A stretch of 35,893 nt of DNA, taken from NCBI RefSeq assembly GCF_000739995.1, contig NZ_BBJX01000015.1, positions 1 to 35,893 on the forward strand, read 5' to 3'. A model generated the notes under the pieces. It did not search any database, was not told the origin of the DNA, and was given only the letters and a program-made list of their open reading frames with translations. Position numbers and translations under genes: made by a program. The DNA comes from Comamonas granuli NBRC 101663 (lineage in GTDB: Bacteria > Pseudomonadota > Gammaproteobacteria > Burkholderiales > Burkholderiaceae_C). Within the stretch, counting starts at the first letter, position 1; the number at the start of each line of letters is the position of its first letter. Of this stretch, positions 24,890-27,142 are shown in pieces.

Positions 24890-25438
24890 ATGCCCGAATC
24901 GCGTCCCCTGTCCGCGTCCCTGCACAGCCTGCAGACGTTTGGCGACATCAGCCGCTTCCTGCGCGAGGGAGTGGCCGACGAGGACTCGCGCGAGATGCGC
25001 GAGGGCGTGGGCGCGCTCGCCCAGGTGATCGACGAAACCGTGAAAGTGCGCCGTGCGCGCCAGGAGGCCGGGGCGGTGACGGCGCACGCGCGCATCCTGG
25101 TGCGCGTGGTGCGTGAGCACCTGCGCTTTCTCACCGGCCTGGGCTCGGCCTGGCACGCGCTGTACGAGTTCGGCGCCTACCAGAGCGCGCTGCAGGAGCT
25201 GCGCCGCGCTGCCGAGGCCTGGCTCAAGGCGCTGGAGCAGCGCAGTTCGCGCGAGGGGGGGGCGTTCGAGCGCCTGGAGCTGCTTGCCTGGCGCACCCTG
25301 GGCGAGGGCATGCTGCTCATCGACATGTACGAGCAGGGCAGCGGCGGCATGCTCAGCGCCGTGCCCGAGTCGGCGCCGCCCCCCGCGCGCTCGCCCTGGG
25401 CGCGCCTGGCCGCCTGGTACCGGCGGTTGCGCGCCTGA
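24890..25438 (+). CDS. Conserved hypothetical protein, helical
   Basis: I do not recognise this family. The 182-residue product is predicted almost wholly helical and charged (LREGVADEDSREMREGVGAL, HARILVRVVREHLRFLTGLG), with no signal peptide, transmembrane segment or catalytic motif that I can see. The region LGEGMLLIDMYEQGSGGML is conserved-looking. The C-terminal 30 residues are Pro/Ala/Arg-rich. Its base composition and codon use match the neighbours, so it is likely a real, ancestral gene. It lies between tldD and the aro leader region, 64 nt after the tldD stop, which could suggest co-transcription with tldD. The opposite strand also has an open frame, but it is disordered and Arg/Ser-rich. 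Confidence 0.7.
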   Translation: MPESRPLSASLHSLQTFGDISRFLREGVADEDSREMREGVGALAQVIDETVKVRRARQEAGAVTAHARILVRVVREHLRFLTGLGSAWHALYEFGAYQSALQELRRAAEAWLKALEQRSSREGGAFERLELLAWRTLGEGMLLIDMYEQGSGGMLSAVPESAPPPARSPWARLAAWYRRLRA

Positions 25439-25459: not shown

Positions 25460-25487
25460 TTGCACTGCAGCGTGACTGTGCTACATT
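25460..25487 (+). promoter_or_regulatory. Promoter of the aromatic leader/DAHP synthase gene
   Basis: TTGCAC (25460-25465), a 16-bp spacer and TACATT (25482-25487) fit a sigma-70 promoter, and the TGC just before the hexamer adds an extended -10. The spacing to the leader ATG is seven bases, so transcription would start at or one base before it. Confidence 0.6.
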
Positions 25488-25494
25488 CAATCCC

Positions 25495-25551
25495 ATGCAT
25501 CCGCGCTTTGCCTTTTATTTTTGGTTTTGGTTCTCGGTCCCTGGCGGATGA
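25495..25551 (+). CDS. Aromatic-amino-acid-rich leader peptide (attenuator)
   Basis: This short open frame encodes the 18-residue peptide MHPRFAFYFWFWFSVPGG, with five Phe, two Trp and one Tyr. The core run F-Y-F-W-F-W-F is what a transcription-attenuation leader for aromatic biosynthesis would need. Scarce charged Phe, Tyr or Trp tRNA would stall the ribosome there. The final Gly-Gly codons (GGC GGA) contain GGCGG (25543-25547). This could pair with CCGCC (25590-25594) to block the downstream terminator. No ribosome-binding site precedes the ATG, and a -10 hexamer ends seven bases upstream, so translation may start from a leaderless mRNA. It lies 106 nt upstream of the DAHP synthase gene. 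Confidence 0.85.
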   Translation: MHPRFAFYFWFWFSVPGG

Positions 25552-25588
25552 GAGGCAAGCGCGCAAGCCCCCGAACCCTTAGCACCCC

Positions 25589-25622
25589 ACCGCCGTCGCT
25601 CTAGAGCCCGGCGGTTTTTTTT
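25589..25622 (+). terminator. Attenuator terminator ahead of the DAHP synthase gene
   Basis: ACCGCCG (25589-25595) pairs with CGGCGGT (25609-25615) and is followed by eight T (25615-25622), the form of an intrinsic terminator. It lies between the leader peptide stop and the structural gene, so it decides read-through. The inner palindrome GCTCTAGAGC may extend the stem. GGCGG at the end of the leader peptide could compete for CCGCC. Confidence 0.85.
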
Positions 25623-25657
25623 GTCCTTTTTTTCCCACTTTGCACAGAAAGCCTGCG

Positions 25658-26788
25658 ATGACTGCCAAAGCCCTGAGCACCAGCGAGTCCTGGTACCAAA
25701 GCGTCGAGAAGACCAGCCTGACCGACGACGAACGCATCAAGGACATCACCGTGCTGCCCCCTCCCGAACACCTGATCCGGTTCTTCCCGATACGCGGCAC
25801 CGCGGTGGAGCAACTGATCGCACAGACGCGCAAGGCCATCCACAACATCATCCACGGCAAGGACGAGCGCCTGCTGGTGGTGATCGGTCCGTGCTCCATC
25901 CATGACCCGGCGGCGGCCCTGGAGTATGCGCGCCGCCTCAAGGAGGTGCGTGAAAAATTCCAGGACACGCTGGAGGTGGTGATGCGCGTGTACTTCGAGA
26001 AGCCGCGCACCACGGTGGGCTGGAAGGGTCTGATCAACGACCCCTATCTCGACGAGAGCTACCGCATCGACGAGGGCCTGCGCATCGCCCGCCAGTTGCT
26101 CATCGAGATTAACCGCCTGGGCGTGCCCGCGGGCAGCGAGTTCCTCGACGTGATCTCGCCCCAGTACATCGGCGATCTCATCTCCTGGGGCGCCATCGGC
26201 GCGCGCACCACCGAAAGCCAGGTGCACCGCGAGCTCGCCTCGGGCCTGTCGGCGCCCATCGGCTTCAAGAACGGCACGGACGGCAACATCCGCATCGCCA
26301 CCGACGCCATCCAGTCGGCCAGCCGCGGGCACCACTTCCTGTCGGTGCACAAGAACGGGCAGGTGGCCATCGTGGACACCAAGGGCAACAAGGACTGCCA
26401 CGTCATCCTGCGCGGCGGCAAGGCGCCGAACTACGACGCCGCCAGCGTCGCCGTGGCCTGCAAGGACCTGGAGGCCGCCAAGCTGCGCCCCACGCTGATG
26501 GTCGACTGCAGCCACGCCAACAGCAGCAAGCAGCACGAGAAGCAGCGCGACGTGGTGCGCGACATTGCGGGCCAGATCGCCGGCGGCTCGCACAGCGTGT
26601 TCGGCCTGATGCTCGAAAGCCACCTCGTCGCCGGGGCGCAGAAGTTCACCCCGGGCAAGGATGCGCCCGGCGCCCTGGAATACGGCAAGAGCATCACCGA
26701 CGCCTGCCTGGGCTGGGACGATTCCGTGCAGGCCCTGGCCGAGCTGTCGGCGGCCGTGCAGGCGCGCCGCACCGCTGCCAGGGTGTAA
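25658..26788 (+). CDS. 3-deoxy-7-phosphoheptulonate (DAHP) synthase, class I
   Basis: Condenses phosphoenolpyruvate and erythrose 4-phosphate in the first step of aromatic synthesis. The 376-residue product is of the AroF/G/H type. Clear blocks are LLVVIGPCSIHDPAAALEYA (PEP/metal loop), MRVYFEKPRTTVGWKGLIND and SWGAIGARTTESQVHRELAS. Later blocks are GFKNGTDGNIRIA and TLMVDCSHANSSKQ, with the metal ligands. The ATG at 25658 gives MTAKALSTSE; an ATG at 25640 is a poorer fit. It is preceded by an aromatic leader peptide and terminator, so attenuation is predicted. Which amino acid feeds back on the enzyme cannot be read with confidence. Confidence 0.96.
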   Translation: MTAKALSTSESWYQSVEKTSLTDDERIKDITVLPPPEHLIRFFPIRGTAVEQLIAQTRKAIHNIIHGKDERLLVVIGPCSIHDPAAALEYARRLKEVREKFQDTLEVVMRVYFEKPRTTVGWKGLINDPYLDESYRIDEGLRIARQLLIEINRLGVPAGSEFLDVISPQYIGDLISWGAIGARTTESQVHRELASGLSAPIGFKNGTDGNIRIATDAIQSASRGHHFLSVHKNGQVAIVDTKGNKDCHVILRGGKAPNYDAASVAVACKDLEAAKLRPTLMVDCSHANSSKQHEKQRDVVRDIAGQIAGGSHSVFGLMLESHLVAGAQKFTPGKDAPGALEYGKSITDACLGWDDSVQALAELSAAVQARRTAARV

Positions 26789-26830
26789 GCTCGGGATTCC
26801 TTGAATTCATCAATCACCGAAAGGCCTTTC

Positions 26831-27142
26831 ATGCACAGCGTGGTGACGGTTTGCCTGGACAAAGACCAGGAATTTCGTTTTGAACTCGACGGCGTCGAAC
26901 CCATGGCGCACGAACAGGCGCGCCTCTGGCTCGATGGCGAATTCACGCGCATGGAGTGCGAACCCCTGCGTGCCAGCGGCAAGGTGCTGCTGGCCGACAA
27001 GGTGCTGGTCGTGGCACGGGCGGCCGGAGCGTCCCTGCTGGGCGATCGCGCGTGGCTGGGCCAGTTTGCGCGCGCCGCGAGCGCTGCGCTCTCGCGCCCC
27101 GTGGTGCGCATCGACCTGGCGGGCATGACCATCAATTACTGA
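26831..27142 (+). CDS. Small hypothetical protein
   Basis: I do not recognise this 103-residue protein (MHSVVTVCLDKDQEFRFELD at the start). It looks like a compact soluble protein of alternating strands and helices: there is no signal peptide, transmembrane segment or known motif. A GAAAGG element lies just upstream of the ATG at 26831, supporting that start. An in-frame TTG at 26801 is less likely. It follows the DAHP synthase gene by 42 nt on the same strand and could share its transcript. No functional link is visible. It is convergent with mpl. Confidence 0.7.
   Translation: MHSVVTVCLDKDQEFRFELDGVEPMAHEQARLWLDGEFTRMECEPLRASGKVLLADKVLVVARAAGASLLGDRAWLGQFARAASAALSRPVVRIDLAGMTINY

Follow-up and report, generated by a model that had tools for sequence, protein, structure and literature searches.

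A probable ribosome-mediated attenuator with an aromatic leader peptide upstream of DAHP synthase in Comamonas granuli and other proteobacteria

Leader, promoter box, and alternative pairings

Aromatic synthesis begins with DAHP synthase. In the window (the whole 35,893-nucleotide stretch analyzed here, a single contig of the 3.5 Mb genome), an aroFGH-type DAHP synthase gene on the forward strand (25658–26788; NCBIfam TIGR00034, E 1e-160; Pfam PF00793, E 7.7e-94) is preceded by a short aromatic reading frame and a terminator hairpin, which raises the question of whether translation of that frame controls the gene. The ORFs flanking this unit (24893–25438 and 26801–27142) had no Pfam match at E 0.001. 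An initial annotation had read the arrangement as an attenuator. We consider it very likely that the region is a ribosome-mediated transcription attenuator of the DAHP synthase gene, given the conservation of leader, pairing, and terminator, the covariation between families, and the codon spacing.

The leader ORF, MHPRFAFYFWFWFSVPGG (25495–25551, forward strand), has 18 codons, with an ATG start at 25495–25497 and a TGA stop at 25549–25551. Eight of its residues are aromatic (five Phe, one Tyr, and two Trp), so that all three aromatic amino acids occur in one peptide, as had been proposed. Codons F5 to F13 (25507–25533, forward strand), eight of nine aromatic, form the putative sensing block, which was delimited from the sequence and from codon spacing over 126 leaders. 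Upstream regions of related loci were scanned for ORFs with at least six F, W, or Y within 10 residues. The nearest named relatives belong to Comamonadaceae, in the order Burkholderiales. The scan set combined the 80 best named of 577 relatives with 30 loci from 150 family genomes, and 108 of these 110 loci had the required 150 nt or more upstream (L002 and L065, with short upstream regions, were dropped). Such an ORF, rich in the amino acid products of the pathway and lying upstream of the biosynthetic gene as in the attenuator class, was found in 107 of 108 loci but in only 7 of 2160 dinucleotide shuffles. The two scan sets overlap, leaving 104 distinct sequences among the 107; collapsing family loci that are >90% alike reduced the 107 to 70. 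Among all 163 leaders, Phe is present in 163, Tyr in 158, and Trp in 128, with all three in 128 (108 of 109 within the family), and each of the three occurs within the sensing zone. Trp is mostly or wholly absent from the leaders of families f8, f11, f20, and f44. Phe and Tyr codons vary synonymously. A few elements have weak leaders, which counts against an attenuator: none was recognized in L172, and L174 has only three aromatics in 10 residues.

An extended −10 box, TGTGCTACATT (25477–25487, forward strand; hexamer TACATT at 25482–25487), was identified by its conservation in the family. Of 107 family loci, 100 match it with no more than one mismatch and all 107 with no more than three, compared to 2 of 2140 shuffled regions with at most one mismatch. 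The ATG lies 6–9 nt from the box in 105 of these loci; in the remaining two, in-frame ATGs lie 1 and 7 nt from it. No conserved −35 box was found in the family loci, and a simple scanner listed no sigma-70 promoter at this site. At more distant loci, a −10-like hexamer ends 6–9 nt before the ATG in 26 of 54, while comparison stretches of four bases that do not overlap this zone have such hexamers in 4 to 7 of 54. These counts start from 60 loci, less three that lack a nearby leader ATG and three family members. A Shine-Dalgarno-like motif was present in 2 of 57 distant loci. From the position of the box, transcription is predicted to start at about 25494–25495, at or beside the leader AUG. Because the conserved −10 box lies 6–9 nt before the AUG and there is no Shine-Dalgarno site, the leader mRNA is probably leaderless.

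Segment 1 of the RNA (25502–25526, forward strand) covers early codons of the leader, and predicted folds and a duplex test indicate that it can pair with segment 2 (25543–25563). Within segment 2, GGCGG (25543–25547, forward strand) lies in the Gly-Gly codons of the leader and is the putative 5′ arm of an antiterminator. Its complement, CCGCC (25590–25594), is contained in segment 3 (ACCGCCG, 25589–25595, forward strand), which could pair with GGCGG or, in the terminator, with segment 4. The intrinsic terminator (25589–25622, forward strand), seen in sequence and predicted fold, has arms at 25589–25595 and 25609–25615 followed by eight T (25615–25622), and it is conserved in the family alignment A1 (70 rows). 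A simple terminator scanner, in which loops were limited to 3–8, missed it. The positions initially given for the ORF, GGCGG, CCGCC, and T8 all hold.

GGCGG is read in all three frames among 126 leaders (68, 50, and 8), indicating that selection there acts on the RNA and not on the peptide. Pairing of segments 2 and 3 was compared between each element's own arms and arms exchanged among elements. Across families (63 elements, of which eight belong to the family and 55 do not), own duplexes had −17.45 kcal/mol versus −15.88 kcal/mol for mismatches, and 0 of 300 mismatched sets equaled them; the same test on 73 elements of the family also gave 0 of 300. The pair next to GGCGG in the order-wide alignment is C-G in 31 rows, U-A in 24, U-G in 4, and unpaired in 20 (79 rows), and the covariation score was matched by 0 of 500 shuffles. 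For the family alone, the column covariation signal is weak, with 54 of 500 shuffles scoring at least as high; this counts against the attenuator reading, as do the ordinary folding energy of 25480–25660 (z −0.51; 55 of 200 shuffles as good) and the lack of a conserved −35 box. When the RNA was treated as exposed, all five GGCGG:CCGCC pairs formed in the predicted folds of 122 of 128 elements. Complementarity, covariation, and these folds together identify a mutually exclusive terminator and antiterminator with one common arm, as in the attenuator class, and the GGCGG:CCGCC pairing proposed in the initial annotation is thus conserved in the family and covaries between families.

In ribosome-free RNA, a predicted hairpin between segments 1 and 2 hides GGCGG. 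Own segment 1:2 pairings beat mismatches in 200 of 200 comparisons across families and in 197 of 200 within the family; for a control pairing (leader start with the stretch before CCGCC), own arms beat mismatches in 175 of 200, with 25 of 200 as good. An extra antiterminator helix between GAGAG and the stretch before CCGCC was favored by flank-free duplex energy (2/300 across families and 0/300 within the family). As a free best helix it gave 15/200 across families, 12/200 without family f1, and 1/200 within f1, and because of this weakness the extra helix is proposed only tentatively despite its duplex energy.

One alternative is a chance aromatic ORF in T-rich DNA followed by the ordinary terminator of the upstream gene. 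T-rich DNA readily encodes Phe, and the upstream ORF does end nearby, at 25438. However, the difference between loci and shuffles reported above, the conserved promoter box between the leader ORF and the upstream gene, and the spacing and three-way complementarity make this explanation extremely improbable, and it was rejected on the shuffle comparison.

Distribution of the element and its downstream genes

Because the earlier loci had been chosen by gene similarity, a covariance model (R1) and an order-wide model (R2) were searched against evenly drawn genomes, with stricter filters for the large genome searches. Of 150 family genomes, R2 detected the element in 146; among the 133 of good quality, it did so in 131. 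Two of the four genomes without it (G055 and G074) also lack a DAHP synthase match, and the other two (G043 and G093) are 80% and 55% complete. Alignment across relatives, which had been suggested as a check, recovered the leader, the GGCGG:CCGCC pairing, and the terminator. Loss of these features in close relatives, which would have spoken against the attenuator, did not occur, and the element extends far beyond Comamonadaceae.

The sole family locus without a leader, L062, has a match to the group II intron family (Rfam RF00029, 47.3 bits; L062:70–141) just upstream of the DAHP synthase gene at a contig end; perhaps the intron separates the attenuator terminator from the gene. Another family genome (G140) carries tandem DAHP synthase genes (L198) with a leader before the first copy only. 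A second copy of the element was sought in the genome of the window, where only partial, terminator-like matches were found (E 0.13 or worse).

R1 gave full-length matches (E 5.5e-6 or better) in 72 of 300 order genomes, representing 14 families; many sampled families had no match, so the element is not universal in the order. A DAHP synthase gene lies downstream in 66 of the 69 order loci examined, one site being represented twice. The remaining matches, L178 (full-length, E 0.008), L179, and L180 (both partial), are not upstream of DAHP synthase and were not counted, nor was the partial match L218. A search of 229 genomes of the class with R1 gave a single full-length match outside the order (G605). 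R2, searched against 299 genomes of the phylum, gave full-length matches in three families of the same class (f63, f219, and f221) and three of other classes (f242, f245, and f249). All 14 loci examined in f63, f242, f245, and f249 precede DAHP synthase; eight further matches lie outside the set of out-of-order loci examined, and near-identical distant loci (e.g., L147/L148 and L149/L158) are retained in several counts.

Leader-bearing DAHP synthases split into two deep clades. The family's second DAHP synthase paralog had no leader in 7 of 7 genomes examined, and this attenuator-free paralog falls mostly in a clade other than that of the leader-bearing family copy. Either the element is older than the split between DAHP synthase clades, or it has switched partners.

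The element's persistent position next to DAHP synthase also bears on another alternative, that selection preserves a trans-acting product, either the terminated leader RNA or the peptide it encodes, which could coexist with attenuation. In Sinorhizobium meliloti, rnTrpL and peTrpL are described as acting in trans (PMC7298713), and the leader transcript predicted here is likewise short with a terminator at its end. Against this, leader peptides diverge strongly between families, while the aromatic codons, pairing, and spacing persist beside the same gene. We regard selection for a trans-acting product as very improbable.

Codon spacing and proposed mechanism

Measured from the first base of the codon, aromatic codons occupy the zone 12–38 nt before GGCGG and then cease (126 of 128 elements; L172 and L174, with no clear leader, were left out). 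An aromatic codon is present 12–14 nt before GGCGG in 89 of 126 leaders, compared to 17 at 9–11 nt, one at 6–8 nt, and two at 3–5 nt. The last aromatic codon in the window, F13, starts 12 nt 5′ of GGCGG. In all 12 leaders from outside the order that have this motif, the last aromatic codon lies 11–14 nt upstream of it; a thirteenth, L215, was left out of the count because it has no GGCGG. L215, from another class, has an aromatic leader (FYWY) before DAHP synthase, and its switch may use a different pairing or may have decayed.

The front edge of the ribosome lies about 12–13 nt beyond the first base of the A-site codon, as known from toeprinting in E. coli. With the aromatic codons ending 12–14 nt before GGCGG, a ribosome stalled on an aromatic codon would leave this motif just free. 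The regulatory codons of 126 leaders, and of the 12 outside the order, are therefore placed as in the attenuator class, where the stalled ribosome spares the antiterminator arm.

In 70 of 126 leaders, the stop codon begins 6–19 nt past the first base of GGCGG, and in the other 56 it begins 21–33 nt past that base. It had been proposed that a ribosome finishing the peptide would cover GGCGG. This agrees with the window, where the stop codon is 6 nt past the start of GGCGG, but not with the 56 leaders that have distant stops, which the simple stop-codon version leaves unexplained and which count against it; masking in these leaders would occur in transit and not at the stop.

From the anatomy, conservation, covariation, and spacing, we infer the following start site, stalling, read-through, and amino acid response. 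Transcription would begin at or beside the leader AUG, and a ribosome would load onto the leaderless mRNA. When charged Phe, Tyr, or Trp tRNA is scarce, the ribosome would stall on an aromatic codon occupying the A site, with its front edge just before GGCGG (25543–25547). The free GGCGG would then pair with CCGCC (25590–25594), preventing the terminator and allowing read-through into the gene. When aromatic amino acids are ample, the ribosome would cover GGCGG on its way to the stop codon or at it, the terminator (25589–25615) would form, and transcription would end in the T8 stretch. Without translation, segment 1 would trap segment 2, and the terminator would form as well.

A short hydrophobic peptide encoded directly 5′ of a terminator could also be an arrest peptide, of which TnaC is a known case, responding within the exit tunnel to free aromatic amino acids or to a different ligand, independently of uncharged tRNA. 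The peptide sequence is not fixed, however, and the aromatic zone is wide (12–38 nt) with a sharp edge, which fits codon sensing better than a single arrest site. We therefore consider ligand-dependent arrest very unlikely, and the codon-sensing attenuator remains the preferred reading.

Relation to known attenuators

No Rfam family reached its gathering cut-off in the window. The closest comparison is Phe_leader (RF01859), found upstream of gammaproteobacterial pheA and pheST, which likewise has an aromatic leader peptide, alternative hairpins, and a terminator with a T-run. In the window it scored 15.9 bits (E 3.6, full model), below the cut-off of 55 bits, and at the gathering score there was no match in L201, L203, L208, L136, or L138. 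The element described here differs from Phe_leader in targeting DAHP synthase, in reading Tyr and Trp besides Phe, in its GGCGG/CCGCC switch motif, and in a leader that is probably leaderless. R2 was built from DAHP synthase leaders alone and nevertheless also recovers pheST- and pheA-type leaders: five Phe-rich leaders in f219 and f221 (L212, L213, L214, L220, and L221) are of this type, with gene identity tested for one of each type, and those two match Phe_leader. The last aromatic codon in these five lies 16–17 nt before the corresponding arm. Their recovery favors the attenuator reading and may reflect shared ancestry or convergence among aromatic attenuators.

Several systems described in the literature resemble parts of this arrangement. 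In Corynebacterium glutamicum, aroR-aroF is also described as an attenuator before DAHP synthase, with a leader containing Phe-Tyr-Phe (PMC11802643, PMC4046766) whose reported response is to Phe and not to Tyr (PMC11802643). By its description, it is set apart as an actinobacterial system with an aromatic run of three residues. The uORFC-13-1 motif of Acholeplasma, upstream of aroF, also combines a terminator with a uORF that contains Phe; the available text reports it only from Acholeplasma and environmental sequences and contains no report of reading three amino acids (PMC8632094). The trpL leader (rnTrpL) of S. meliloti is likewise described as a leaderless ORF, its transcript starting at the AUG, but has Trp codons and controls trpE(G) (PMC7298713, PMC10117765). 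DAHP synthase genes in E. coli are described as being under the repressors TyrR and TrpR (PMC11802643, PMC5343134). Available accounts also include an older suggestion of attenuation at E. coli aroF, a regulatory RNA predicted upstream of Shewanella aroF, and putative attenuators ahead of tyrA-containing operons in several bacteria, including Bordetella (PMC1173090). Within the available text of the open-access literature, no attenuator of this kind is reported in these bacteria, and we provisionally regard the DAHP synthase attenuator as new to them.

The element probably works like a classical ribosome-mediated attenuator that reads three amino acids. We lean slightly toward a more specific reading, in which it is an RNA class absent from Rfam, spanning 14 families of the order and four proteobacterial families outside it, and acts as a leaderless OR switch with three inputs. 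Phe, Tyr, and Trp codons would lie inside one ribosome-length window before GGCGG, and shortage of any one aromatic amino acid might open this gate to the common pathway. The spacing in the 126 leaders measures, as a natural experiment, the point at which the front edge of a stalled ribosome has to halt, and with this profile the evolution of an attenuator's sensing window can be tested directly. The leader also offers metabolic engineering a target. If the proposed mechanism is true, many other proteobacteria control the DAHP synthase step by translating a tiny leaderless ORF that could sense the three end products together.
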